A DNA stretch of 64,000 nucleotides. Origin: Endotrypanum monterogeii. Lineage: Eukaryota > Euglenozoa > Kinetoplastea > Trypanosomatida > Trypanosomatidae. The notes beneath the pieces were generated by a model. The model was not told where the DNA came from. It worked only from the letters and a program-made list of their open reading frames with translations, and searched no databases. Position numbers and translations under genes: made by a program. Where the stretch lies: positions 374,027 through 438,026 of the forward strand of contig CM007326.1 in assembly GCA_000333855.2 (NCBI GenBank), read 5' to 3'. Position 1 is the stretch's first letter; each line of letters begins with the position of its first letter. Of the stretch, positions 792 through 61,423 are shown piece after piece.

Positions 792-1087
792 AACGACAGA
801 CACTCACAGACGTGAGTGACCCAAGCCCCGCTTCTTCCTCGCAGGTTCCCCACGTCACTGCTGCGTGTTGCTCGTCGCATTCCCTGCTTTTCTGATCAGT
901 ACCCCCCCTTTTTTTTTTTTTACTTCGTGCCTCCTCTGCAGCGATTTTTCCTTCCTTCCCTCTTCCCCCGGTGGGCAGCGTTGACCCAAACCTGGATAAG
1001 AAGACGAAGACCGCAATCGTGCCTAGAGGAGACAAACGGGCTGGCTCAGCAGCCTGTCTCACGGAAAGGAAAAGAGGGCCATAATTG

Positions 1088-1103
1088 TTTTTTTTTTTTA
1101 CAG
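1088..1103 (+). promoter_or_regulatory. Predicted spliced-leader acceptor for the 777-aa gene
   Basis: A run of T followed by acag gives a textbook polypyrimidine-AG trans-splice acceptor, predicting a 5' UTR of about 124 nt. Confidence 0.6.
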
Positions 1104-1219
1104 CAGCAACGGTCGAGACGTGGGGGGGGGGGGGCTCGTCAGCGCACACGCATCTTCGGCTCTGCGGGAAAAAGGTTGAGGGTGAGCGACCTCCCTCAGG
1201 CGGAGCTCGCACTCCGTTG

Positions 1220-1237
1220 ATGGAGCGATGGATGTGA
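1220..1237 (+). promoter_or_regulatory. Five-codon uORF overlapping the main start codon
   Basis: If the acceptor at 1103 is used, the first AUG on the mRNA is at 1220, not 1228. It encodes M-E-R-W-M then TGA at 1235-1237, so its stop lies just inside the main frame. Leaky scanning or reinitiation would be needed, which would lower translation of the downstream protein. Confidence 0.5.
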
Positions 1238-3561
1238 AGATCAGCAATGTTCTAACCCGTTTCGCTTTTTCTATTCCGAGTCTTCGTGATGACCTCGACG
1301 TCGATGACCACGCCGGCTACGGTGTGGGGGCCTCCTCTGATGACGAGAGCACCCAGAACATCGGTGATGTCGCTCACGGATGCGTAGCCGATCGTCGTGA
1401 CACCAGTAAGTACCCGACAGGAGCGGCGAGTGGCTGTCAATGGTCGCGCTCACGGACCCGTGTGTCGGAGTTGCCTCGGGACGAGCCGGGCCTCACAGGC
1501 GCCTACTCTTTTGTGGATGATGGCGGTGCATCATCTGCTTCATCGCCTATCCCCGGTTGTGGACCTGCGCGCAACGGCCGCATCACACATTTGACTGCGA
1601 GGACGCCGCACGGCGCTGCTAGCACCAGGGGCGATGCTGTCTGCAGTGGTGTGTCGTTGCATCTGCCGGACCTCATGCAGCTGGCAGCGAGGTTGTGGAA
1701 CGTTGAGCTCCACCGCGGTCCGACGGGAACTGCGAGCCACTGCGTGCTACGACCCCCTCCTTATGTTATCAACAATGTTCTCCACCGTGGGCCGGTGGTT
1801 CAAGTGTTCGCCTCCGGAGTGGTACGTATGATGACGCACGGCAGTGTGGCTGCCACAAAGGTGCTGGCGCAGCGCGTTCATGACGAACTGCACGAGGCGT
1901 GCGTACCCCTGGCCGTGCGCCGTGCAGCCCGTGAGGAGTCGCTGTTGCTGCGGGCGGTGCTGGGTGACTCGGGTGCGGGCGTGGTAGGCGAAGTGAACGA
2001 CAACGACGGACCTCCTGGTAGCTCATACGCTGCAGTACCCAAGGCGGGTTCGCAGCAGCCGATCAACGGCCACAAAATTAATTTAGGGACTTCTTTTTCC
2101 AGGGATGCAAGCGCAGGCGATCCTCCCAGGCAGAAAACCTCCGTCGATTCTCTCGGCTCCCGCCGAATGCTGACCTTGGCAGATGGCAGGGCAGGCCGGG
2201 GTCAACGAATGTCCAGTTCAGCTCCCACGCCTTCCTCTGCGCTCTCCCAGATGTCACTGACCATTGACTTCTTGCAGGCGGTGGCAGTGCCGCGTTGGGA
2301 TGAGATAGCCGCTCTGCGGGCCTCACTCTTGAGCACAGCATCGGCATCTGATGCTGATGAGAGTGGCCTCGGTCCGAAGGAAGATGTGCGTATCTCTAAA
2401 AAAAAAACTGGTGTTGCAGTACATCGTGCTAGTGTCAACGTCCGCGGTGACGCCCCGATGGAGTGGTGGCGGTGGTATCTCGACGTTCAGACAGATGACT
2501 GCTGCACTTCTCAAAGCTGCTCGTTGGCTACAGATGCCCGCGGAGATAAAACGTTGCCAGGGGACCCCGCGGATCTGCTCTCGAGAAACGACCCTCTGCA
2601 ACCAACCAGTCGCGGTTTCGTTGCTGCCGAGGAAGGCGACGCCACCGGTCGCCATCCCAACAAGTCGAGGGGTTTCTGGACCTGCGCTGGCCTCGCAAAC
2701 GCATCACCAGCGGTCGCTGCAAAGTTTGTGAGCTTTCTGCGACGCCGCCGGGCGTTGTTGGCGCAGCACACTGTTACCTACCGGCTGCGTCGTCAAGCCG
2801 GACAAAACAGTCTCCATATTCTCCTCGACTGGCGAACAACTACTCCAACGCGCTCGCCACCGCGGTTCACGGCTGCTGCCACTCACATCAACGCAGCACC
2901 CGCAGCCGCTGCGGTGTCGCTTGCAGAGCCTTCCCCGCCTACCCGACCACTGATCGTGCAGCGTCCCCTGGAGGTGTCTCGGGCGCCGCTCGATTCCAGC
3001 ACCCCTTCTGGGTTGGCTGCTGCGCCAAAGGGACCTACCGGCACCCGTCCATGGGTGATCGAAGCAAGTGCCGCGCAATTCTTCATGGAGTCAACTTTTA
3101 TTCCCGAGTCGACGGTGCCGTACGGTATGGAGAGTGTGCGAGTGTCCATGAGTCAGTGCGAACCCACTGAACCCGCGGGAGCGGCACATGAGACGTTGGG
3201 TGACGCCCGCATGGAAAGCTCTATTGGTGACACCGCCATGACGCTCGACTCTGGTGGTCATGATCGGATGTCTGCTCTGCCGGAAGACGATAGGAGCCGC
3301 CCTGTGCTGCGCCATGAGAGCATAAATGGTGGTCTAGTGTGCGTCAAGAAGACTACGCGCGCTAAGCGTAGTCGTGGTGGTGCCCCTCTGGGGACATCCC
3401 CGGCAACGGGGGATAAACATGCAGCCGCAGTCGAGCATGTGACGTGCACAATCCATCGCACAGGCCGTGCCCAACTGACTGCGTCATCGGAGGTGGCGTT
3501 GCAACAAATATGCTCGTTGCTGCTCATTCCATTCCTCGTAGCGACGGCGGAGATCGTGTGA
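1228..3561 (+). CDS. Hypothetical protein with TBP-like (TATA-binding protein fold) ends
   Basis: 777 aa; the start is the first long-frame ATG. I see no definite family, but two parts resemble the TBP saddle. First, residues 3-20 (VKISNVLTRFAF) and 141-225 could be repeat 1: a strand, then helix DLMQLAARLWNVEL (149-161), then the strand pair SHCVLRPP and VVQVFASGVVRMMTHG (190-205), then a long helix. This follows TBP's order with its ARNAEYNP and LIFSSGKMVCTGAK segments. Second, the C-terminal 80 residues (GLVCVKK, HVTCTIHRTGRAQLTASSEVALQQICSLLLIPFL in outline) follow TBP repeat 2. Ser/Ala/Pro-rich, probably disordered segments separate the parts. One intercalating-type Phe is retained in VFASG; the second repeat lacks it. 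Known trypanosomatids use a divergent TBP (TRF4) encoded elsewhere, so this would be a second, highly modified member. The TBP link is inference; a lone conserved hypothetical is the alternative. Confidence 0.9.
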   Translation: MDVKISNVLTRFAFSIPSLRDDLDVDDHAGYGVGASSDDESTQNIGDVAHGCVADRRDTSKYPTGAASGCQWSRSRTRVSELPRDEPGLTGAYSFVDDGGASSASSPIPGCGPARNGRITHLTARTPHGAASTRGDAVCSGVSLHLPDLMQLAARLWNVELHRGPTGTASHCVLRPPPYVINNVLHRGPVVQVFASGVVRMMTHGSVAATKVLAQRVHDELHEACVPLAVRRAAREESLLLRAVLGDSGAGVVGEVNDNDGPPGSSYAAVPKAGSQQPINGHKINLGTSFSRDASAGDPPRQKTSVDSLGSRRMLTLADGRAGRGQRMSSSAPTPSSALSQMSLTIDFLQAVAVPRWDEIAALRASLLSTASASDADESGLGPKEDVRISKKKTGVAVHRASVNVRGDAPMEWWRWYLDVQTDDCCTSQSCSLATDARGDKTLPGDPADLLSRNDPLQPTSRGFVAAEEGDATGRHPNKSRGFWTCAGLANASPAVAAKFVSFLRRRRALLAQHTVTYRLRRQAGQNSLHILLDWRTTTPTRSPPRFTAAATHINAAPAAAAVSLAEPSPPTRPLIVQRPLEVSRAPLDSSTPSGLAAAPKGPTGTRPWVIEASAAQFFMESTFIPESTVPYGMESVRVSMSQCEPTEPAGAAHETLGDARMESSIGDTAMTLDSGGHDRMSALPEDDRSRPVLRHESINGGLVCVKKTTRAKRSRGGAPLGTSPATGDKHAAAVEHVTCTIHRTGRAQLTASSEVALQQICSLLLIPFLVATAEIV

Positions 3562-4389
3562 TGTGATGAGCGAGGCGGAAGGATCTGATCGCTCATTTTT
3601 CTGTACCAAGTCTACTGCGCCCCCCCCTTCTTCTCCACCCTATCACCCGACGTGCCTTGTGAAGTCTTTTCGTCAGGTATGTGGGACATAAGTGGTCAAC
3701 AATGCCTCCGTCATGCTCGCTGTATCTTCTTTTTTTTTTTTGGTGATAGGTTGCACCCTTGGGTTGCATGGTGTGTACACTCAGCTGATGCTCGCACCAC
3801 AATGGCTTTGTAAAATCACCTCCTCCCCCCCTGGCAGGAGCTTCTCACCTAGCGACGTTTTGTTCTTCACAAAATATGTGCCCCGACATGCAGCACATGA
3901 GGTGAGCCCCATAGACGGTATGCTCTAGGGGCATCAGAGGGGAGAGCGAGGGACAACGGCGTGCTGCCCTAACATTTGTGTTAGCGCGTTTTCATGCATC
4001 TGCTGTCTTTGGCGCCGCTCTCTTTTTTTTTTTTGATTCGCGTTGGTATCATGATGACTCCAATACTTGCTCTCGTTCACCCTACGCCTTCCCCCTTCCT
4101 TTTTTTAAATTATTATTATTATTCGTTCACGCATACAGAGACAATTTTTGTTGTTGCTATCACGTGCGGGCACGTGTATGCTTAATTTCATAGAGATATC
4201 CTTCTGCACCCTTTTATCCCTGAAGGAAACCGTAGAGGCCGCCAGAGTAGGCTGGGCTGAAGACAGGGGGTGGTGGAGTAGGGACGGGCAGGGTGGGGGA
4301 CTTCAGGTCATCCAGCAGCGTATTTTCATTTTTTTTTTTTGATTATCGCATCTTTTAGTTCATTCTGAGGAGAAGATAAAAAAAAAAAA
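3562..4389. other. Spacer between the TBP-like and PP2C genes
   Basis: Several T tracts (near 3730, 4021, 4105, 4329), a short ATT repeat and a purine-rich stretch near 4260-4310. No gene seen. Confidence 0.7.
4329..4358 (+). promoter_or_regulatory. Predicted spliced-leader acceptor for the PP2C gene
   Basis: A 12-nt T run and a second pyrimidine stretch end in cttttag at 4352-4358. This predicts a 31-nt 5' UTR that finishes in an A-run directly against the ATG. Confidence 0.6.
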
Positions 4390-7300
4390 ATGATTCCCTC
4401 CCATGTCTCGCCGATTCCACCCCTCGCTGCCTCGTCAATTATACATGGCGTTTCTCTCGTGAGCAGCGACAGTGTAACCGATCGAGAGACCTCTACGTGT
4501 CCCTCGGAGGCCTCTGCTACGCGTGCGTCCGCTGAGATGAAGTCCATGCAAGGCTCGAGTTTGACAAGATTGCCGAAGCCGATGAGAGCCGATAGGATCA
4601 TGGATACTCCCGCCTCGTCTGTTCACCTGAGGCGGCCCCGTTTGTTTCCGCCTTCCCAGCGGACAAATATTCACTCGCGGTGCGCCTCCGCACCCTCGAG
4701 GTCGGTGCCGCTTCTGGAACACCGGCGTAGTGCTGCTTTCTCTGTCACCATGCCACACGCTACCCTCAGGAGCGATGCGCATCGATGTCGCAGCCACACT
4801 CGCAGCAGCGCCAACATTCGGGCTCAGCTCGAGCAACCGTCACCGGAGCAGATGACTTCTACATCCACCGGGTCTTCTACAAAGGCAACTGCGGTGGGTG
4901 CACAGGCGGCATCGCCTTGGCGCATTATCTGCGAAGAGGCATCAACCCCGCCGTACACTTGCGAGCACATCAGCGATGCTGGATGGCTTCGCTGTGGGGG
5001 AGGGCAGTTTTCGGGGCGTGATGGGTGCGCCTGCGGCAGCAAAGCACCTGCGCCCCTCTCATCGTTACCTGCTTCTGCACCGGCCACGGCAGGTGCCTCT
5101 CTGCACGATGCAACGCAGCGCCTTTTCTTTACCGATGAGGAAGTCTCGGTGACTAATGCAGATGATCCAGCGGATACGTGGGCAAGCTCTCATGTGTCGA
5201 GAAGAGGAACATCGTCAGCACCGCCGACCGACTCGTCGACCCGACTGGGGCCGGTGGCAGATGTGGTTGGGACACTGCTCTCTGGGGACATCGCGCCTGG
5301 TGCGTTGAGGGGCTGCACGTCCAGCAACTCTCGTGCGGCACCAACCGCTGCAGTGAATGTATGCCCCACTACCGCATCAAGTTCTTCCGAAATTCGTTTC
5401 TCCTCCTCGCCCGTGTGTGAGAGCACAGCACCTCAATGCATCAATACCGACACGCACGGGCTGCCCTGTGACCAAATGGGCTGCCGGGAGAGTTGTCCCG
5501 GTGGGGCTGGCGAAGGCTCCGGATACGTTCGTCTAGTCACGGTTCCTACCTGCGCTGTGTTACAGTGTGGAGACATGGACGTCACTGCTGCCGCCCTCAC
5601 AGGCGGAGTCACACCGCACAGGCCTGGCGTGCGCTGTATCGAGTTCCCGGGAGAATCAGTAGCGCATCCGCGGTCGCCGGATACGTCGCTCACAGGCACG
5701 CGCTCGACCGTTCGCAGCTGCGAAGTCGGAGACTGCCCGGGGGTCGACAGTGTGCTCGGGGGGGACGTCACCGGGGATAACGATGTATGCGAGCGCCGAT
5801 CGACGGTGGCGTTTCGGCGTACTCCCCTGAAGAGGGAGAGGCGTGTCGGTGATGCCGCAACCTCACAGGTTCAACATACGGACGCGGGACCACCAGTAGG
5901 AGCGACTAACAGCAGTAGCCAAAGTAACCTGGAGGCTGCTCTGAAGTTTCACCAACAAGGAGTGCGGCAGACCTATCGAAGCGACCGGGGAACGTCTTCC
6001 TTCACGCGGGACACTCTCACCGCACCACATGTTTCGCCTCCCCCCACCCAACTCAGATGCTGTAGTGGTGTAGATGGCATCGCCCTCGTTGCGACGGAGC
6101 AGTCAACGCCGTTGTTGTCAGTGAATGCCTCTCACACGAGTGCTGGGTGTGCTCTGTGCAACACGACGCTGGGCGGCAACTCGTATTCCACACCGGTGAT
6201 GAGGGCCGCCAGCGAGGCAATGGTCGACGCGGAGGCGACAGCACAGAAGGGAGGATGTAAGGGATTCCTCAGCAGTGACGCAACGTTGCTCGATTCATTT
6301 CGTATCGACTTAGCCCCATGTCCTTCCAGCATCGCGCCTGCCTTCTTGCTCGTTCCGTTTTTGATGGCATCGCCAATGCTCACCCGAGAGGGCTTAGGGA
6401 GGCGGTCCTGGTCTCATGGGGCCCGTGCTCGCGCGGGGGCGGGCGTGGGGAACGAGGATGACAGCGCTGTCATCAGAACACCCGTGCCCCCACCCTGCCC
6501 CCTCGCTCACCGTGGCTGGAGCCTCCACGGTACACCAGACGCAGTCCACGCGGCAGGAGAAAATGGTGGAGGGAGATTTTCCGATGGCGGTGTTTGCCAT
6601 CCGGCTCGCTTCAGGCCTCTGCAGGGGTGGGCATCGCCCTCATCTTCACAGTCTCATGCCGCGGATGATGCCGACACCGTTGCCACGCCGAGGTCATGCA
6701 GCCCTTCATTCTGCAGCGCTTTCACTGGTCGATTGGGGTGTGCCGCCGGCGTGAGACAAGGCCACACTTTTCTACCGCGAAAGGATGCGTCATTTTATTC
6801 CTGTCCCAGTGCGAGGCGAATGCACACAGTCACGGTGCCGCCGCATCAGCACTCGAGCAGTACCCACAACTCGCTTGTCTTGCAAGAAGCCGCCATAGCG
6901 AACACGTCGCAGGCTTCACATCCGAATCAGCCGCGATCCCCCCCATTGCATCGGGGGCCAGTGAAGCCGCTTCCGATGTTTCCCTCCTACGCTGCAGCGC
7001 CGGATTTTTCTTTAATACCAACGCTAGCGCGGCAGTACGCGGGCGGCGACGACGGCAGCGATGTGAGTCCTGCGCCAGCCCCAGCAGTTGGAGGAGTGGA
7101 CGGTGGGGGCAGCCGTACGCCGCCTGAGCTGACAACCTCGGCGATGAGAGGCGCGCCTCGCATCCTGACCTCAGCGCCATCGCTGGGGAACCTATGGCAA
7201 GCGTCCCGCACACCTGCTAGGCATACGGACGCCCGTGTGGCTGCCCCGTGGGGTACCGTGTCCGCGGCCACTGAGCCATGCCACAAGAGTAACTCTCATG

Positions 7301-10300
7301 TCTCTTGTGTAGATGAGACGCCGTATTTCACGAACACCCGGGGGTCACACGTGCAGTCTTCAGTCTATTCGCATTCGTTGATGTCGCCTCGCCTCCCTCT
7401 CCCGGCGTCAGCAGTGGAGGACGTGCTCACATCGCCGCCAGCACTCGCTGACGCACCGCCTCTGCAAAGCAGCCGCGCTACGGCCGATGTAGCCGAGCGA
7501 TGTGTAGCGGGTGAGCTGAGGAGAAACACAGAGAGATTACTTGACGAATCCTATAGGGAGGGTTTGCTGTCCACGTGCTCAACTCCGCCGCGCCGGCCAT
7601 TGCTTTCCCCGAGCACGCCTCGCGTGTCGGGATTTGTCTCACCCAGCAATGGAGCAGATGCCTTCTACAGGAGAGCGATGCAGAACAGTGCGCGGAAAAA
7701 CGTTTTATCGTCTGCCAGCTTCCCCCGTGGCAGTCCGTTGGCAGCGGAGGCGAGAGCATCTCCGTGTTTACCGTGGGCTCCCTCGCAGCGCATGTCGCCC
7801 ACCGCACTGGCATCTGTCGGTGGGCCGGGCACTGATAGTGGAAGCAGGCGGACGCGTACTTGGGTCCGGAGGCCTTCCTGCACTGCTGCAACGCGTGCCG
7901 CTGCGTCGGACAGCGACATTCCTCTTTTTTGGGGGGAGGAGTTGGAGCTACGTGGGCTGCAGCGCATATCAAATATGTCGTCTGGCTCGCTGATGAGCCC
8001 CACCGGCGTCATGAGTGCACCCATTGAGGCAATGTATGGTGTGTCCCAGCAAGCGGCCCCTTCAACGCCTCACCCAAAAAGGGGGAGTTGCGGCGTGGGT
8101 CGCAGTGTTGTGGGCACTCGTGGCGCCCACGGGTTTTCGTCGATGCCGTTGCTTCCGCCCCCGCCGTTGGGAGCTCTTACAGGAAGCGGTGAGACATCCT
8201 CGACAACACCATGGCACAGCAGCGTCTCCGATCCGCCTGCAGCGATGAGTTGCATTCCTGCTACCAGAAAAGCAGCTCACAGCCGTTGTATCTCGCCACG
8301 GTGGTCCTCGCTCGAGTTGTCTGCACGCAAGCCGAGTGCCTCGCGGGCAGCCGCTATGCTCGGAAAAACGACCCCCAGGAGGGAAGAGATAAAGATGAAT
8401 GCGTTGAGAGGAGGTGAAGATCAGATCCAAATGACCTCTGCATCGGATTCGCCTGCGAATAGCACTGCTGCCGCCGAGGGCGCACCACCCCGGATGCTCT
8501 CGCCCCAGCCTGGGGAGCTGAAAAAAACTCAGTTTCACTGCGCTTTCAGCTCGCTGCGCGGCTGCCGCAGAGCGCAAGAGGACAGCGTCATGATTGTGGA
8601 TGACCTCACGGTTCGACTCGCTCGATGCAAGCCTGCGCTGTCGACCACTGCCGCGTCTGCTGAGCCTTCCTCGGTAACTCAGGCGGAGGGAAGCGTAGGT
8701 GCGTCAAGGGACACTGGTGTTGAGGGCGGCGTTACTGAACGAGGAGCAGCGACCAGCTCCATACCGAAAACAGAAAAAGTGGCGGCACAGCACATTGCTG
8801 ACGCGCCCCTTGAGGCTACGCTTTTCTGCGTGGGTGTGTTTGATGGACACTGTGGTGACGACGTCGCGTCGTTTGCCTCGAACTTCTTCTCAGAGCACTT
8901 GGAGTACGCTTTGCAGTCGTACCTGAGAGAACGAGGCCGGGATCTGGGAGAACGCGGAGTCCTCATGGGTGGCGCGCGGTGTAGCAGTGACGCTCGAGGG
9001 GAAGTTGGGCAGGGGCCACATCCTGGTCATCACGAGCCCTTCTTGTCCGACGTCCTGGAGTTCCAGCGAGTTGTGAGCACCTCCCTGGTGCAGGCGCTGT
9101 TGCACCTCGACCTGACTTTGTACACTCTGCTTACCAACCCTCCCAAGGGCCGCTCGGCGCTGCGCTGTGACGCCGGATCCACCGCCACTGTGGCAGTGTT
9201 CTTCAAGGCACCGTCCGCAACAGCGCCACACCACGGTGGTGTGAGAGCAGTGGTGGGTAAGAGCTCGAATGGCGTACCGCTGCTTTCTTTCGGGGGCAGC
9301 GTCGCGGCGCCCAACAGCGCGGATTCGCCCACAACCCGCACACCTACGGTGCTGGATGGGGCGGTGCGGGGGCGAGTAGGGTGCGGCAGGGAGGCAACCC
9401 GGTCACCTATGCCCGCCACCTCTGTCGAGGGCACGTACCGACTCTGTATCGCGAATTTGGGTGATAGCCGTGCCATCATTGGCCGTCTTCACACTGGTGA
9501 TATTTTGCTGACCACCACTGACCACCGTATTTCTTCTTATCCAACGGAGGAGGCTCGAATTCATGCGGCCGGCGGTGTGGTGGAGATGGGTCGTGTAGGT
9601 GGCACTCTCGATGTGACGCGGGGTTTGGGGGACTACCGCCACAAGGTCGCACCATCTCAGTGGTGGCCTTCAGCTGCATTGACAGCATCACAGGAAGGGG
9701 TGATGAAGTGCGAGGATGACAGCACCACATCCCACATGTCGTCAACCGAGATGGAGGCAGTCGAGGGGTTGGCGCCGCTTGTGAGCACTCTGCCCTGCAC
9801 GGATGCTGCCTCCACGGGTGGCACCTCTGTGGCGCGTACCCTTCGTTGGCATTTGAGGTCGATGACACCGCCCCAGACTCCCCTGAGCTCGTGCAGTGAC
9901 GACAGTCGATTTGAGGATGTCGATGTTCAGTGGGATGCGAGCAGTGCCCAACGTCCTCATCAGGAGGTGCGGCTGGTATCTATGAAGTCTTCGTGCGACA
10001 TGCATCCGCCCAGCGGTGCCGAAGGTGAGACCGGCGGGCATGTCAGCCCACAAAAACAACCGCCCCAGGCTGTCCGGGGCTCAAACCCTTCTCCAGTCGT
10101 CTTTCCGAAGTCGCCGCTCACTCCTCGGTCTGCGCCTCTGTCGGCATCGCCCGAGACGCTGACGGGCAACGCCGTGAGCAACATCGCCGACATCTACGAG
10201 TGGGAAGTCCATCGCGGTGAAGTTCTTATCGTTGCCTCTGACGGCGTCTGGGACTGCATGAGCTCCGAGGAGGTGCTCACCCTTGTGTGTGAGGCACTAG

Positions 10301-10752
10301 CCGAAGCGCAGGAGCATCCCAATACATCTTCCGTTGGCGCGATCCGCGGTGACAACGTCGCAGCAGAGACCTCAAATGGTGCAGGTAGAGAGGTGAGGGA
10401 GCTGTCGGGGTTCGACGGAGTGGACGCAGAGGTATCGAGTGCAACCGGTGTAACACCGTCATCCCGTGGGGGTGCGATCGAGGGTAGTCCGGTGAGGTGT
10501 GCATCTCCCTGCTTGGGGCGAAGCGCCACAGGCTCTCGCTGTTGTCTCGGCAGCGCCTTCTGCACTCCAGGTGGAAATGAAGATGTGGTTTGCAATGACG
10601 TTCCCTCTGCTGTGGGCTTGCCGGCGGGCATGATCAACAGAGCGCCTAGCCTTTTTGCTGTGCAGACCGCAGCTCGTCGCTTGACGGAGCATGTGGTTCA
10701 CGATCTATTGGGCAGCGACAACACCTCAGCCGTGGTGGTGGTGTTTCACTGA
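4390..10752 (+). CDS. Protein phosphatase 2C-like protein, very long N-terminal extension
   Basis: 2120 aa; PP2C enzymes are usually 300-500 aa. About 1375 N-terminal residues are Ser/Thr/Pro/Ala-rich with no recognised domain, probably disordered. The catalytic region runs from about residue 1375 to the end and keeps the family motifs in order: RRAQED (metal-binding Asp), VGVFDGHCGD near 1480-1488 (family DGHGG), CDAGSTA, ANLGDSRAI near 1687, HAAGG, VTRGLGDYRHK near 1745, VASDGVWD near 1948, and LLGSDNTSAVVV near the C-terminus. The metal-binding Asp residues are kept, so Mn/Mg-dependent Ser/Thr phosphatase activity is expected. The fold is split by insertions: roughly 50 aa after the first motif, more around 1500-1560 and 1620-1670, about 170 aa between GLGDYRH and the VEHRGEV-like strand near 1930, and about 120 aa before the last motif. 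The substrate is unknown. No signal peptide or membrane segment. The ATG is the first after the acceptor; a later start cannot be excluded because the N-terminus is not conserved-looking. Confidence 0.93.
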   Translation: MIPSHVSPIPPLAASSIIHGVSLVSSDSVTDRETSTCPSEASATRASAEMKSMQGSSLTRLPKPMRADRIMDTPASSVHLRRPRLFPPSQRTNIHSRCASAPSRSVPLLEHRRSAAFSVTMPHATLRSDAHRCRSHTRSSANIRAQLEQPSPEQMTSTSTGSSTKATAVGAQAASPWRIICEEASTPPYTCEHISDAGWLRCGGGQFSGRDGCACGSKAPAPLSSLPASAPATAGASLHDATQRLFFTDEEVSVTNADDPADTWASSHVSRRGTSSAPPTDSSTRLGPVADVVGTLLSGDIAPGALRGCTSSNSRAAPTAAVNVCPTTASSSSEIRFSSSPVCESTAPQCINTDTHGLPCDQMGCRESCPGGAGEGSGYVRLVTVPTCAVLQCGDMDVTAAALTGGVTPHRPGVRCIEFPGESVAHPRSPDTSLTGTRSTVRSCEVGDCPGVDSVLGGDVTGDNDVCERRSTVAFRRTPLKRERRVGDAATSQVQHTDAGPPVGATNSSSQSNLEAALKFHQQGVRQTYRSDRGTSSFTRDTLTAPHVSPPPTQLRCCSGVDGIALVATEQSTPLLSVNASHTSAGCALCNTTLGGNSYSTPVMRAASEAMVDAEATAQKGGCKGFLSSDATLLDSFRIDLAPCPSSIAPAFLLVPFLMASPMLTREGLGRRSWSHGARARAGAGVGNEDDSAVIRTPVPPPCPLAHRGWSLHGTPDAVHAAGENGGGRFSDGGVCHPARFRPLQGWASPSSSQSHAADDADTVATPRSCSPSFCSAFTGRLGCAAGVRQGHTFLPRKDASFYSCPSARRMHTVTVPPHQHSSSTHNSLVLQEAAIANTSQASHPNQPRSPPLHRGPVKPLPMFPSYAAAPDFSLIPTLARQYAGGDDGSDVSPAPAPAVGGVDGGGSRTPPELTTSAMRGAPRILTSAPSLGNLWQASRTPARHTDARVAAPWGTVSAATEPCHKSNSHVSCVDETPYFTNTRGSHVQSSVYSHSLMSPRLPLPASAVEDVLTSPPALADAPPLQSSRATADVAERCVAGELRRNTERLLDESYREGLLSTCSTPPRRPLLSPSTPRVSGFVSPSNGADAFYRRAMQNSARKNVLSSASFPRGSPLAAEARASPCLPWAPSQRMSPTALASVGGPGTDSGSRRTRTWVRRPSCTAATRAAASDSDIPLFWGEELELRGLQRISNMSSGSLMSPTGVMSAPIEAMYGVSQQAAPSTPHPKRGSCGVGRSVVGTRGAHGFSSMPLLPPPPLGALTGSGETSSTTPWHSSVSDPPAAMSCIPATRKAAHSRCISPRWSSLELSARKPSASRAAAMLGKTTPRREEIKMNALRGGEDQIQMTSASDSPANSTAAAEGAPPRMLSPQPGELKKTQFHCAFSSLRGCRRAQEDSVMIVDDLTVRLARCKPALSTTAASAEPSSVTQAEGSVGASRDTGVEGGVTERGAATSSIPKTEKVAAQHIADAPLEATLFCVGVFDGHCGDDVASFASNFFSEHLEYALQSYLRERGRDLGERGVLMGGARCSSDARGEVGQGPHPGHHEPFLSDVLEFQRVVSTSLVQALLHLDLTLYTLLTNPPKGRSALRCDAGSTATVAVFFKAPSATAPHHGGVRAVVGKSSNGVPLLSFGGSVAAPNSADSPTTRTPTVLDGAVRGRVGCGREATRSPMPATSVEGTYRLCIANLGDSRAIIGRLHTGDILLTTTDHRISSYPTEEARIHAAGGVVEMGRVGGTLDVTRGLGDYRHKVAPSQWWPSAALTASQEGVMKCEDDSTTSHMSSTEMEAVEGLAPLVSTLPCTDAASTGGTSVARTLRWHLRSMTPPQTPLSSCSDDSRFEDVDVQWDASSAQRPHQEVRLVSMKSSCDMHPPSGAEGETGGHVSPQKQPPQAVRGSNPSPVVFPKSPLTPRSAPLSASPETLTGNAVSNIADIYEWEVHRGEVLIVASDGVWDCMSSEEVLTLVCEALAEAQEHPNTSSVGAIRGDNVAAETSNGAGREVRELSGFDGVDAEVSSATGVTPSSRGGAIEGSPVRCASPCLGRSATGSRCCLGSAFCTPGGNEDVVCNDVPSAVGLPAGMINRAPSLFAVQTAARRLTEHVVHDLLGSDNTSAVVVVFH

Positions 10753-27954: not shown

Positions 27955-28290
27955 CTCTCATATGGGCGACAAAAAACAGCGTCCACTCCAATAAGACTTC
28001 CATTTTGTGCCCCTCATCCTTTTTTCCCCTTTTCTTTTGCGCCGCCTTGCGCTCAGCATCTCTAGTAGCCGTGGGCCAGAGTGTCGTGAACGTGAGAATA
28101 TACATATATATATATATATATATATTTTGGGGGGGGGAGAGGGAAATCCCCGCATCGTTGAGTTGTACCTTTTCTGCATCACGCAGCCACCCGTTTGAGA
28201 CACCGCCACGCGAAGCTTCACGTGCGGTGTGATCACACAGACACGCCTCCGCCATTTAAGTCTAGTTTTCACAACGAACATTGCCACATA

Positions 28291-31200
28291 ATGACCGAGT
28301 GCGGCAGTAGCATGCAGGCCCAGATGCTCATACGTGTCAATGAGTACGTGCAAGCGCAGCGGAAAGCTTACACAACACTATCGATCGATGAGCAGCGACG
28401 ACGTGGCCCGCTCCTGTTAGAGGACCTCCTTAATTTGGTGATCCACTACTTGCACGAGGAGGTTGACGGCAGTGAAGGGGACAGCGAGGATGACGGTCAT
28501 ACCGTCTCCGATGGAGCTGGGCGAGGTAGTGACGTGCGGCAACCGAGAGCACGCTTGCGAGCCGCACCTCGGAATCGGCCTCTCAAACTCCTTACCTCGT
28601 CAACGAGCTCGCTTCCGTTCGCGCTCCGCGATGTGCCTGCACTTGCCAGCGTGGCGTCGCTGCAGATGAGACTGACGACGATGGTGATGGCGGCCATCAG
28701 CACACGCGCCATTGTCACTCTTTATGAACTGGAGGAGTGGGCGTGTGCCCAAGAGGGCGTGGGGCACTTCGTCGAGCTTGGGCTCGGTACTGGATTGCAC
28801 GTGTTGCCCATCGTGCAGGACTATTTCCATCTGCGGCCGAATTCGCTTGTATTTCCCGTGCGAGCGCATGACGTTATTACATTTCTTTTGAACGATATGA
28901 CGGCACGAGAGATGCTACTCTACGGCGGCGGCGACACTCGAGACCTACTCTACCGCTTCTCCGCCTTCTATGAGCGTCACGTCCTCGCCGGCGGGGCATC
29001 GCCTTCGTCCACTGCAGCGCGGCGCGGACAAGGAAAGCTGGGGAACGTGCGTCAACTCGGCATTCATGTGCAGGACTATGCCGCATTCCTTGCGTTACTC
29101 TCGCAGGAACTAACAAATGCACACCGAGTGGAGCACCAGCACTATCAGCGGTGGATGGAGCGCTGTGTCGCCACTGCAACAGCTGACCCACGCCGACCCA
29201 ACGCCGAGCAGACTGGAACAGGGGCAGCTGAGTCTGATGGCAGTGTTGGTGAGGGTGGGCTTGTGAGAGACGCATCTTTCGAGATCGCAAGTCGGTGGGA
29301 GAGGAACCAGGGCCTGTACGAGCGCGTGTTGAGATCCCTCGACGCAGCGTGCGCACACGCAGAGCTCGTTGAAAGCATGCGACGCACACGTGAGAGATCC
29401 CTCTGCAGACGTCTCGGCTGTGACGAAGATGCTGTACAGCGCGTGACCACCTCTGGGACTCGCGTCATGAGATTCGCTGTTACAGCCACAGAAGCCGAGG
29501 CGCGCTTATATAGCATTCCCCTCTCCCTGTGGCGTACATCACCTCTGGGTGATGAAGCGTCTACCACCCTGGCAGGCAGCAGTGAGGGAAGAGGGGGGGT
29601 GGAGCTGTGCTTTCATGTGGGGGATTCGACTAGCAGGAGGGAATGCCGAACGCTGCACGAGCCTGCGCACGGTAACAACGCGGCCCCCACCCCTGGTGCG
29701 GTCTCTCATGTTTACCAGTGGCATGCGAGTGCGGAGAGTCCTCAGGGGAAACATCCTGAGAAGCACACCGACAATGATGTCACCATGGGTACTAAGCCAC
29801 CGTCGTCATCGGTGATCCGCCGCCGACGCGGTATTATAGTGTGCGATGCGCCTTCCATAGTCCCACAGGAGGCGCTCAACGCTACCGCTGCTGCGACTAC
29901 GTTGCCGAAAACGCAGCAGGTTGGCGCGGAAGGCGCTGGCTCACTGCTGGCCTCACTGCTGGCACCAGCTGGATCGCTGGGTCTGGCTGAGCCCCGCAAC
30001 GGCAACTTAGCAGACGCACCCCTGACTGCTTCCCTACGAGGCAACGACGCCGCTGTGGATGGGGTAGAGCGCGTAGGGGGTACCGAGTCAGTGACAGCAG
30101 ATGTAGCTGGGAGCCCTCGAGAGATCACCACGGAACCCGCGACAGCAGTAGAGCGACTGTGCGATATTTTGACTCAGTCCAGAGACTCGGAGCTAAAAGC
30201 GATACATACCCCCGCCCCCGTGAGCGCGGCATCGACAGCCTCGCGTGCGCGTGACACGTGGCTGAGCCGCGTCGTGGATGTGTTCGAAGCCTTCAAGGTT
30301 GGCGATGTGGTACCTGTTAAGTTGCTGTGCAACGCCTGGGCGACGTGCGCAGGGTGCCCACGCCCGGCAGCGCGCACGAAGTCGTCCAACTTCTCAAGTG
30401 AACGCGGCACTGCAACAAACGAATACACACAGAGACGTTGCATACCTCTTTTTCACCCCTTCGCCGGTGCTTCTAGCAGCGGTGTCATCAGCAGTACGGC
30501 GCCCGTGAGCCGGCTGGCATCACTTCGGCAGCAGCTGAACGCAAGCTTTCCTGGCGCCGCGCCGCCTAATACCCACGCAACACCAGCGGGCTCCTGTGCC
30601 TCTACGGTTGAGGAAACAAAGGAGGTAGTTTACATGGCCACCCCGGCGGAAGTGTGCTGGCTGTCATGGTGGGGTTCAGCGTCGTCGGACGCACCTAATT
30701 CACCTACAGCGGTCCTCTTGACCTGCTCCTGCCTGGATCGTCATTATCCCTCGACTCTCCGAAACATTTTTTGTGAACTGCTCGGTGTACGCGCCGCGCC
30801 CACCGTAGCTGCGTGGTGCACAGCAGCAGCGATGTGCGCGCGTCGACTACTTGCGCCGGAGGCCTTGACACCATCTTTCGTTGAGGTGTACATGGAGTCA
30901 TTTGAGCGGTGCGTGAATGCAGATGTTGCTGCTAGGGCAGCCGAGGAGTGTGAAGGGGCGACGCCGACACCATCGCCGCCGGTGTCTCTGTCAGCCGAGC
31001 TGCCTTTCCTCCAGCGGCAACAAAAGACCGCACAGGTTGCTCTCCACAGAATGCTTCTCGATGTGCAGGAATCGCTGTGGACAACGTCACCTTGGCGGGC
31101 AGAAGTCTTCCCCTGCGACCATTCATGGCGCTGCGGTATTGATGGGCTGCTCTACGCGACGCCTCAGTGGTGCAGCTACGATGGGGTCTTGCTAACAGCT

Positions 31201-33192
31201 TCACCAAGTTCCCCATCGGCGCGTACATCTGTAGTGGGATACCTTGCCAAGGCTGAGGGCACCAGCAGTGCTGGTGCCGCCCCGCCGCTTCGAGTTGTGT
31301 GCTTTCGAGCGCACGAGCCATCGTGGGCTGTGTGTGGGGTCCTGCATTATTTTGGTGTAAGACCTCTCTCTCAGCTGACGGAGACGCGTGTCAGCCTTCA
31401 CACCACCGTCGCCACGGATGCCAGTGGAGCGCTACACGACAAGATCGCTGTCATTGTGCCGTACGTGCAGGCTTTCTGCCGAGCATTCTTTCCTCTGTGG
31501 TACGGAGTCGTTTACGTGCAGCTGCGTGAGCGACTTCGGCGGCTTCGTGTAGTGTTGACGGCCATCGCCAGCACCAGTGCACTTGGCACCTCGACTGCAC
31601 CACTACAAACTCATCGACTGCAGCTTGGCGGGCACGTGTACGCGTATGGGCGACACATTGGGCTGGCGTACGTCGAAGCACACAATATCATCTACGGAGC
31701 TGCGGAGGTGACCTCTGTCCCGACGCTGGCCGAGGGGCTTCTGCCGCTGTTTATGCCAGTCGGCATGTGGGACGAGACTGATGCGCGGCGGCTGCGGGAC
31801 GTGGTCATCCGTTTGCTGGGGGCGCTCTCATCACTCGACAGTTCTGTCGAGTGGAGTGACGGCGCCAACACATCTCCGCAGCAGCAGCAATGGCGACGTG
31901 AACAAATCGGACGGGTACTGCAACCTGTCGCTGCGCGCTATGGCTTAACACTCTTGACCCTCACGTCCGACGCGACATCTCCCGCTTCATCCGGCGTCTC
32001 GGCTCCTGAGGAAGTGATGGAAGGCGGCGCAGCTCATCAACATGTTGATGCCGAGGCCCCTTTCACCCTCCCTTCGCGGGCTTCCATACGATACATGTCG
32101 AACTATCCTCCAGGCACCGACGCCCTTCGGCAACCACGCGGGCTGCAGCAGGCCTCAACAGGCCATCGGCCTGGGCAGGCGTCAGGAATTGAGACGCTCT
32201 CTGAAAAAGGTGTTCGTGAGCTAGTAGCGCATGCCAAGCCCTTCACGCAACGAAATTGTGGGGATGGGCGACTTCGCGTGACCGTCCCGCTCGACGGCAG
32301 AACGGTGACGGTGACGTCGATGCCTGCGTGGCAAGGCTTCCCACTGAACCTTGACCTGGACGCCTTAGTACTCAAAAGCATCGTTACCACGACTCCAGAA
32401 GGCAGTCGTCGCGGTGGTGGTGGTGGTGGTGGTGCTGCGGCAGCCGCGGTGCGCGATCCGCAGGACGGCGTCTGCGACGATGATGACAGCACGGCGTGGG
32501 TCAGCGGTGGGGATGAAGACCACGAGTCCTTTCTCACTTTTCAGTATCGCCCCGGGCGCGGGCTTCGAGGCAACAGAGGTGCCTTGGAGTCTCGTAAGCG
32601 GACACGCGTCTGCAGCGGTGACGTTCGAGAACACGCCGGTGCAAAGCTTTCTCACGACATCGTTGGGCCCGATATGGCCTCCGCCGCGATGTGGCTTCGG
32701 CCTCCTGCTGCGCCCGCCATGTCTGGCTCGGGTGGCGACACCCCTGGCTACGCAGTCGCGGCGGAGCGCTACGTTTATGAACTACTTCAAGAGGAGTACA
32801 TCAAGCAAGTGCAGCACGATGGCGTGCGGGTCATCTGGGTGAATGAGCATGGTGAGGCGGGGTCTCCTTTTGACATTCTCGTCATCAAGCCGCGACGACT
32901 GAACAGCCAGACGTGCCGGGGCAGCGGCAGCGACAGTGGTCAGTGGGATGTCGTCCAGTACGTCGAAGTGAAATCCACCTGCACACCTTCGAGGCAGGAG
33001 TTCGAGATGTCCATGGCGGAGATTCTCCTCGCCGCGCGGTTCGGCACCTCCTACTGTATTTACCGAGTCTTTGGTGCATCGACTGACGCCCTGCGGCGTA
33101 TGCGTCACCGCGTCTACGCCGATATTGTGCGTCTGTGGTATACCGCGCAGCTCACGATCACCTCTGACATCCGGGTCACACCGTCCACTTGA
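28291..33192 (+). CDS. NO VEIN-like protein with C-terminal DUF3883 (PD-(D/E)xK-type) domain
   Basis: 1633 aa from the first in-frame ATG. The C-terminal 150 residues match DUF3883: AERYVYELLQEEY (about 1488-1500), VRVIWVNEHGEAGSPFDILVI (about 1512-1530), then YVEVKSTC (about 1556) and a helix EMSMAEILLAARFG. The E..D..E-x-K spacing is the restriction-endonuclease-like core of the family, which includes plant NO VEIN. Two further parts recall NO VEIN: residues about 140-195 (LYELEEWACAQEGVGHFVELG) and about 1050-1175 (KIAVIVPYVQAFCRAF, RLRRLRVVLTAI). The GHKL-ATPase module found in NO VEIN is not recognisable. Low-complexity segments are frequent, and a poly-Gly/Ala run lies near 1374-1385. 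Function is unknown: nuclease activity is possible because D, E and K are retained, but unproven. Nucleus or cytosol cannot be told. Confidence 0.9.
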   Translation: MTECGSSMQAQMLIRVNEYVQAQRKAYTTLSIDEQRRRGPLLLEDLLNLVIHYLHEEVDGSEGDSEDDGHTVSDGAGRGSDVRQPRARLRAAPRNRPLKLLTSSTSSLPFALRDVPALASVASLQMRLTTMVMAAISTRAIVTLYELEEWACAQEGVGHFVELGLGTGLHVLPIVQDYFHLRPNSLVFPVRAHDVITFLLNDMTAREMLLYGGGDTRDLLYRFSAFYERHVLAGGASPSSTAARRGQGKLGNVRQLGIHVQDYAAFLALLSQELTNAHRVEHQHYQRWMERCVATATADPRRPNAEQTGTGAAESDGSVGEGGLVRDASFEIASRWERNQGLYERVLRSLDAACAHAELVESMRRTRERSLCRRLGCDEDAVQRVTTSGTRVMRFAVTATEAEARLYSIPLSLWRTSPLGDEASTTLAGSSEGRGGVELCFHVGDSTSRRECRTLHEPAHGNNAAPTPGAVSHVYQWHASAESPQGKHPEKHTDNDVTMGTKPPSSSVIRRRRGIIVCDAPSIVPQEALNATAAATTLPKTQQVGAEGAGSLLASLLAPAGSLGLAEPRNGNLADAPLTASLRGNDAAVDGVERVGGTESVTADVAGSPREITTEPATAVERLCDILTQSRDSELKAIHTPAPVSAASTASRARDTWLSRVVDVFEAFKVGDVVPVKLLCNAWATCAGCPRPAARTKSSNFSSERGTATNEYTQRRCIPLFHPFAGASSSGVISSTAPVSRLASLRQQLNASFPGAAPPNTHATPAGSCASTVEETKEVVYMATPAEVCWLSWWGSASSDAPNSPTAVLLTCSCLDRHYPSTLRNIFCELLGVRAAPTVAAWCTAAAMCARRLLAPEALTPSFVEVYMESFERCVNADVAARAAEECEGATPTPSPPVSLSAELPFLQRQQKTAQVALHRMLLDVQESLWTTSPWRAEVFPCDHSWRCGIDGLLYATPQWCSYDGVLLTASPSSPSARTSVVGYLAKAEGTSSAGAAPPLRVVCFRAHEPSWAVCGVLHYFGVRPLSQLTETRVSLHTTVATDASGALHDKIAVIVPYVQAFCRAFFPLWYGVVYVQLRERLRRLRVVLTAIASTSALGTSTAPLQTHRLQLGGHVYAYGRHIGLAYVEAHNIIYGAAEVTSVPTLAEGLLPLFMPVGMWDETDARRLRDVVIRLLGALSSLDSSVEWSDGANTSPQQQQWRREQIGRVLQPVAARYGLTLLTLTSDATSPASSGVSAPEEVMEGGAAHQHVDAEAPFTLPSRASIRYMSNYPPGTDALRQPRGLQQASTGHRPGQASGIETLSEKGVRELVAHAKPFTQRNCGDGRLRVTVPLDGRTVTVTSMPAWQGFPLNLDLDALVLKSIVTTTPEGSRRGGGGGGGAAAAAVRDPQDGVCDDDDSTAWVSGGDEDHESFLTFQYRPGRGLRGNRGALESRKRTRVCSGDVREHAGAKLSHDIVGPDMASAAMWLRPPAAPAMSGSGGDTPGYAVAAERYVYELLQEEYIKQVQHDGVRVIWVNEHGEAGSPFDILVIKPRRLNSQTCRGSGSDSGQWDVVQYVEVKSTCTPSRQEFEMSMAEILLAARFGTSYCIYRVFGASTDALRRMRHRVYADIVRLWYTAQLTITSDIRVTPST

Positions 33193-60252: not shown

Positions 60253-60307
60253 ATATACTCTCAAACGGCACCGCCCATCGCTCACAAAGGACTGTACGCC
60301 GCCCGTG

Positions 60308-61423
60308 ATGTGGTCATCTGTCGTCGCTCCAGGTGGGGTCAAGAAGGGCAAGGCAACTGCCACAACATGGGCAGCTGCGGGTTCTGCCTGCACAACCGAC
60401 GCAGCCCCTAGCACAAAAAAAGACAGTAGTCAGACTTCCTCCGAGATGACTACGAGGCGCGGAGACACGATCACAACAATGGCAAATCCCAAAGTCTGCA
60501 CAGTGGAGAAGGGAGGACGGAAGTCGACGTTGCTGAGGGAGCGCGTTGATGCCGGGGTAACGTTCCACAACGTTGCACTCTCCCATGCGGCAGATCTACT
60601 GCGCTCCGAGGCATCCCGTGTGGACGCACAGCTGATGGATGACTATAGCTCTCTCCTACGTGGGAACGCGGTGTACATACACGGCTTTATCTCGGATAAG
60701 GAGGATATGAGACTTTATGACTCTCTCAAAAAGGAACTGGTTGCGTCTACGGGTGCCGAGATGCTCGGGAGTGGGGGTCTCATTGACTGGAGCAAACACC
60801 AAGTCTTCGATAATCCCTCCGACATCAGTCAAACGTTCAATGACATCATCGCCATGCTCGACGAGTATTTCGATGTTGACATCTACGCAACCCGGCTGAA
60901 CTACTACCGGGACGGGACTCAGTGGAAGCCACAGCACCATGATAGTCACGCGTATGGCGGCCGCGCCCTCCGTGAGGACTTCACTGTAGGCGTGTCGCTT
61001 GGTGCAACACGGGGGCTTCTGTTCGTACACGAGGCATCTCAGCGTGAGTTTAACTTTCCACAGATGAACGGTGACTGCTTCGCTTTCACAGGGGAGGTTA
61101 ATGAACTCTTCACTCACGGTGTGCCTCGAGCACACACGCCTACATCAGATCGCTTCAGCATCATTGCCTGGGGGCGTCGACGCACACTAAATGAGCGCAA
61201 TGGCGGTGCGCCGAGCAGCGCGGCGGCCCAACTGAAGGGACACGACATTCACACGATGGAAGATGCGGTGGAGGTCGCAAAGCAGCTGGTAGCGTCACAT
61301 CCGGGTGCCAGGAGCGCGATGGATGCAGTGCCGCCGACCTGCATCAGAGACGAAGAAGGTGCTGCGAAGGTTTTGCCAGTCGCCAAGCCACTGCTAAAGC
61401 GTAAGAAGAATCGACTCCAGTAG
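60308..61423 (+). CDS. AlkB-like 2-oxoglutarate/Fe(II) dioxygenase
   Basis: 371 aa from the ATG; one preceding GTG codon is ignored. N-terminal 90 residues are low-complexity and basic. The dioxygenase core spans about 110-300: [19 protein letters not shown], then [22 protein letters not shown]. The Fe(II) ligands are His210, Asp212 (H-x-D) and His270 (FTHGVPR). Arg282 in [11 protein letters not shown] is the likely 2-oxoglutarate-binding arginine. The order N-Y-Y-x-D-G, H-x-D, distal His, then R fits AlkB homologues, which demethylate nucleic acids or proteins. The second AlkB arginine, six residues on, is replaced by Trp288. A Lys/Arg-rich tail (LKRKKNRLQ) could be a nuclear signal. Substrate unknown. 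Confidence 0.92.

Follow-up and report, generated by a model that had tools for sequence, protein, structure and literature searches.

A putative, strongly diverged TBP-fold protein with insertion-separated saddle elements in Endotrypanum monterogeii

A conserved protein with a predicted TBP-type repeat

We analysed a 64,000-nucleotide stretch of the Endotrypanum monterogeii genome (contig CM007326.1 of assembly GCA_000333855.2, positions 374,027 to 438,026), hereafter called the window, whose own numbering is used throughout. On its forward strand, an open reading frame (ORF) at 1228..3561 encodes a conserved, unnamed protein of Leishmaniinae, 777 amino acids (aa) long. This is probably, if far from certainly, a strongly diverged TBP-fold protein with one five-stranded repeat and probably a second one, in which the saddle elements are separated by insertions and which would serve as a nuclear scaffold. 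The original prediction, made from the sequence alone, had described it as a possible second TBP-like protein expanded by insertions; its idea of the fold turned out to be more right than wrong, and the genome (30.7 Mb in 44 contigs) indeed encodes a separate ordinary TBP, a protein formerly called TRF4 in trypanosomatids.

A chance ORF can be ruled out, as 777 codons compare with a longest frame of 326 in 500 shuffles of positions 1001-4000, and 12 orthologues were found. Their identity to the 777-aa protein is 54% for Porcisia hertigi, 43-46% for six Leishmania entries, 31-33% for two Leptomonas and 33-44% for the remaining three; the resulting family alignment comprises 13 sequences. A profile of all 13 recovered the same 12 orthologues and nothing further among 7990 scored candidates. 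The joined conserved blocks of five orthologues, compared with 7997 scored candidates, yielded no orthologue of about 212-674 aa at E ≤ 10, in a search whose candidates share exact words with the query and which is thus no proof of absence. No Trypanosoma relative was reached by these orthologue searches, and the possibility of a paralogue in the same genome was rejected, as none appeared at E ≤ 1.

The N-terminal part (residues 8-224) is predicted to follow the order strand-helix-strand-strand-strand-strand-helix, with a predicted local distance difference test score (pLDDT) of 70-82 for residues 151-220. Its first strand, S1 (residues 8-13, 1249..1266), was modelled with low confidence (pLDDT 43-50). 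It is followed by H1, S2 and S3 (residues 149-174, 1672..1749), delimited by the model and conservation and with N158 and E160 kept in all 13 members, by an extra small hairpin that the model places between S3 and S4 (residues 179-186, 1762..1785), and by S4, S5 and H2 (residues 190-224, 1795..1899), indicated by the model, structure comparison and conservation and including a S196-G197 turn. The first stretch that had been compared with TBP, VVQVFASGVVRMMTHG, was rightly placed here, as it corresponds to residues 190-205 and is followed by a predicted helix at 207-224. An extra conserved helix is modelled after the repeat (residues 228-245, 1909..1962).

In structure comparisons, repeat 1 proved to be modelled like a TBP repeat, with TBP structures at the top of the lists and well above 9nh6_H in score. 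The likeness to TBPs (PF00352), the one encoded by the same genome included, extends to N-x-E after H1, to S-G or T-G turns between S4 and S5, and, in the proposed second repeat, to the succession of elements. The model contains one five-stranded TBP-type repeat, the feature by which the TBP-fold superfamily is recognized, and we assign the TBP fold to repeat 1 with moderate confidence. A match to DUF3772 (0.014) by one of seven repeat-1 pieces compared with Pfam was taken as chance.

Indications of a second repeat

A second repeat is proposed for residues 343-773. A low-confidence model provides S1' and H1' (residues 343-372, 2254..2343) and the strands proposed as S2' and S3' (residues 514-537, 2767..2838), and S4', S5' and H2' (residues 734-773, 3427..3546) are indicated by the model together with the resemblance of the C-terminal sequence to TBP. 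The second stretch singled out originally, TIHRTGRAQLTASSEV, was also correctly located (residues 741-756, with a predicted helix at 755-773 near the C-terminus), but the segment as then drawn overlooked the likely middle strands at 514-523 and 528-537. The TBP-like order of elements claimed for both segments is well modelled for most of the first and only tentatively for the second. Repeat 2, indicated by the succession of its predicted strands and helices and by a short likeness at the C-terminus, is supported but unproven, and a two-repeat saddle is probable.

The resemblance emerged when C-terminal pieces (the last ~44 residues) of all 13 members were scanned against 24736 Pfam models. PF00352 was matched by four of them at profile positions 49-78 (E-values of 0.047 for P0002, 0.063 for P0003, 0.088 for P0007 and 0.074 for P0008), all below the cut-off (13.1-14.0 bits versus 22.9), a different family was matched by two (0.06 and 0.23), and no family by the remaining seven, including the piece from the window. 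An NCBIfam scan of seven C-terminal pieces returned nothing.

Profiles of individual blocks were also ranked against 36 TBPs and 521 decoy ORFs, many of the decoys being mechanical ORFs rather than proteins, and the TBPs being mutually related, so that the areas under the curve (AUCs) count related sequences. The C-terminal block placed the TBP of the same genome first (10.4 bits, with the best decoy at 7.2), with an AUC of 0.983 equalled by none of 40 shuffled blocks. All core blocks together again placed this TBP first (7.3 bits versus 6.0; AUC 0.878, 0/40 shuffles). The first-repeat block reached an AUC of 0.773 (2/40 shuffles), with two decoys outscoring the best TBP and the genome's own TBP at rank 13, and a middle control block 0.467. 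Column shuffling was applied to five sets of blocks, each compared with three TBP profiles; in 14 of the 15 comparisons, 0 to 3 of 100 shuffles equalled the real score, and in one 20 did. None of 100 did so for the C-terminal block against any of the three profiles, and for block 147-226 the numbers were 0 against TBP repeat 1, 3 against full TBP and 20 against TBP repeat 2. The block borders in both tests were picked with the alignment and the model in view. The two best hhalign alignments to TBP coincided with the two regions singled out originally, covering residues 739-763 (P 0.037, on TBP repeat 1) and 145-224 (P 0.16), and an internal comparison of the two repeats was weak (P 0.1). The whole-family profile placed the genome's own TBP at the top of 36 TBPs and 756 decoys, yet with 1.6 bits only; in the reverse search to this profile a shuffled sequence came first, with 12 of the 13 members within the top 21.

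These results bear on an alternative that we consider unlikely but by no means negligible, namely that a TBP-type domain occurs at the N-terminus alone, the C-terminal half being a different small alpha/beta domain that resembles the TBP hairpin by chance. The C-terminal block is, however, the part closest to TBP by sequence, the strands of 343-773 follow each other as expected for a TBP repeat, and TBP entries clearly outscore 9nh6_H. The TBP-type domains of CPSF and Integrator sit C-terminal to nuclease-family (metallo-beta-lactamase-type) proteins; the present family, unlike CPSF73, CPSF100 and Integrator, has no Pfam domain in any of its 13 members at E ≤ 10. The N-terminal domain would, in this alternative, serve protein contacts as proposed for CPSF73 and CPSF100, which, like IntS9 and IntS11 of Integrator, have single TBP-type domains acting via such contacts (PMC10688271). 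The same source reports no detectable oligonucleotide binding by the CPSF73 and CPSF100 domains, which may prefer peptides.

Weighing the TBP-fold interpretation

A TBP fold with separated saddle elements agrees with the pattern of conservation. Blocks with a mean majority identity of 0.71-0.86 (residues 1-19, 88-98, 145-247, 341-369, 397-422, 481-538, 605-640 and 733-777; borders chosen by hand) alternate with loops at 0.39-0.50, which fits a folded core broken up by disordered insertions.

Several observations nevertheless limit this interpretation. Residues 335-777, folded alone, showed the order of elements of a TBP repeat with a pLDDT of only 37-60, and a three-dimensional comparison of this model gave no TBP match. 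No full-database search by sequence was significant. No Pfam family was matched at E ≤ 5 by the 777-aa ORF or at E ≤ 10 by any of the 13 full-length members, which leaves the family short of the curated cut-off of PF00352, and no PDB sequence was matched at E ≤ 10 by the full and core profiles. None of the PDB sequence searches brought up a TBP: two block profiles found only non-TBP chains, and we regard the matches to VCPI-5, Cap5O, PHF6, a nucleosidase and ribosomal protein L18 as fortuitous. The expectation that the saddle segments would be conserved was borne out, most of the intervening sequence being variable, but 397-422, 481-511 and 605-640 are conserved as well without being saddle elements, and so is 88-98, which conflicts with the interpretation in its simple form.

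The simple form is further weakened by the DNA-facing surface. In a hand alignment to TBP, for which the S-G and T/S-G turns served as anchors, the family conserves none of the four positions of the DNA-kinking TBP phenylalanines: residues 162-173 and 521-530 contain no phenylalanine in any member, residue 194 is leucine in 12 of 13 and phenylalanine only in the protein from the window, and residue 743 is histidine in 11 and tyrosine in two. R11 and R200, which all 13 members keep, correspond to the DNA-facing residues T73 and V122 in yeast TBP. The TBP of the same genome, unlike the 777-aa protein, keeps two of the four phenylalanines, both in its second repeat; as a separate observation, repeat 1 of this TBP (L001:1222-2100) has isoleucine and histidine at the two phenylalanine positions of yeast TBP. 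As none of the four positions is conserved, a TBP-like DNA kink by the 777-aa protein is unlikely, and a TATA-binder is a less likely description of it than a TBP-fold scaffold or an altered nucleic-acid binder. Because it lacks both a profile score above the cut-off and the phenylalanines, the protein would fall outside the TBP family proper; the description as a second TBP-like protein is partly supported, well for repeat 1 and as probable for a two-repeat saddle.

The main texts of published purifications speak against a link to TBP complexes. Downstream of the ORF lie a PP2C gene and, farther, a 2,4-dienoyl-CoA-reductase-type FMN oxidoreductase. In L. major, the orthologue is probably close to LmjF.06.0890, because LmjF.06.0900 is given as PP2C (PMC5743797) and LmjF.06.0930 is mentioned by a paper on 2,4-dienoyl-CoA reductase (PMC7267886). 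For the L. major Brf1 purification, TBP is listed in the main-text table, in which histone H4 is the sole entry with a chromosome 6 identifier (PMC7920299), and the Tau95 and C82 papers give no LmjF.06 identifier in their main text.

Inserted segments and conserved motifs

The protein differs from TBP also in its length of 777 aa, long insertions, extra helices and conserved motifs. An inserted segment at residues 397-422 (2416..2493), with a helix predicted at 409-422 by the low-confidence model, displays conservation of the RGDAPxxWWxWYL type and is the top block measured (0.86). A second inserted helix appears in the model of 335-777 (residues 494-511, 2707..2760). A highly conserved motif in otherwise variable surroundings (residues 609-628, 3052..3111) is centred on WVTEASAANFFMESTFIAES and has about 10 invariant positions; to judge from the sequence, it is possibly a docking motif, a peptide ligand or a self-binding peptide. 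Within a basic stretch at 703-718 (mean majority identity 0.54), KRSR (residues 713-716, 3364..3375) is a candidate nuclear import signal, and the pattern K[KR].[KR], found in 10 of 13 members, provides a hint of nuclear import.

Possible role and closest known systems

If the protein is a diverged TBP-fold scaffold, long, mostly disordered insertions would pull its saddle elements apart, and it would act in the nucleus, possibly in connection with transcription. The sheet surface, with conserved basic and polar residues instead of the phenylalanine wedges, may bind a peptide (its own 609-628 motif or that of a partner) or nucleic acid without a TBP-type kink, and the helical back together with the extra helix 228-245 may hold other factors.

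In a more far-reaching version, which we regard as rather unlikely, the protein is an insertion-expanded cellular TBP paralogue, which in Leishmaniinae takes the place of ordinary TBP in a transcription complex or works there alongside it; its basic and polar saddle would hold DNA unkinked, or its own 609-628 motif would close the saddle until a partner opens it. Viral TBP-like proteins show that a protein with insertions and an altered surface can still work at promoters (PMC12917281, PMC12529657); in the poxvirus VITF-3 large subunit and KSHV ORF24, segments have been added to a TBP fold and the working surface has changed, as predicted here. Unlike our protein, these are viral, and ORF24 requires TBP-like phenylalanines, which are absent from the 777-aa protein. 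A search of a viral fold library gave no match at E ≤ 0.001.

Med20 has a TBP-related fold within a transcription scaffold. A role as a Med20-type subunit of the Mediator head appears improbable: unlike Med20, the family has no sequence match to PF08612 in the Pfam scan of its 13 members, a search for Med20 in the genome, run without a positive control, found nothing, and no Mediator entry was recognized among the best 50 rows of either structure list, which does not exclude Mediator. The trypanosome Mediator has nine subunits and resembles the yeast head without recognizable homology to known subunits (PMC7337167), so sequence cannot decide on such a role. Hardly credible, finally, is a longin protein of the CCZ1/INTU/HPS4 type, the label that the orthologue P0004 carries in one source. 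We reject this label, as neither PF19031 nor any other family was matched by the 13 members at E ≤ 10, and the sole PF19031 match in the genome (E 1.1e-10) belongs to a different gene on contig 36 (1298712-1299038).

Genomic context

Elsewhere in the window, a PP2C-type phosphatase domain lies within an ORF of unusual length (2120 aa, 4390-10752), a 1665-aa ORF (28195-33192) carries a NO VEIN C-terminal domain (PF13020, 4.2e-13), and an ORF at 60305-61423 contains a 2OG-Fe(II) oxygenase domain (PF13532, 4.2e-8).

Implications for trypanosomatid transcription

Most trypanosomatid protein genes are transcribed as long polycistrons. A single TBP is named for these organisms (PMC7337167), and our literature searches found no paper on a second one. 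If the interpretation favoured here is true, the unsupported longin label on an orthologue would be corrected, the insertion-expanded TBP folds of viruses would gain a cellular counterpart, and a second TBP-fold protein, missed by profile searches, would become a concrete candidate for an unrecognized part of the transcription machinery.
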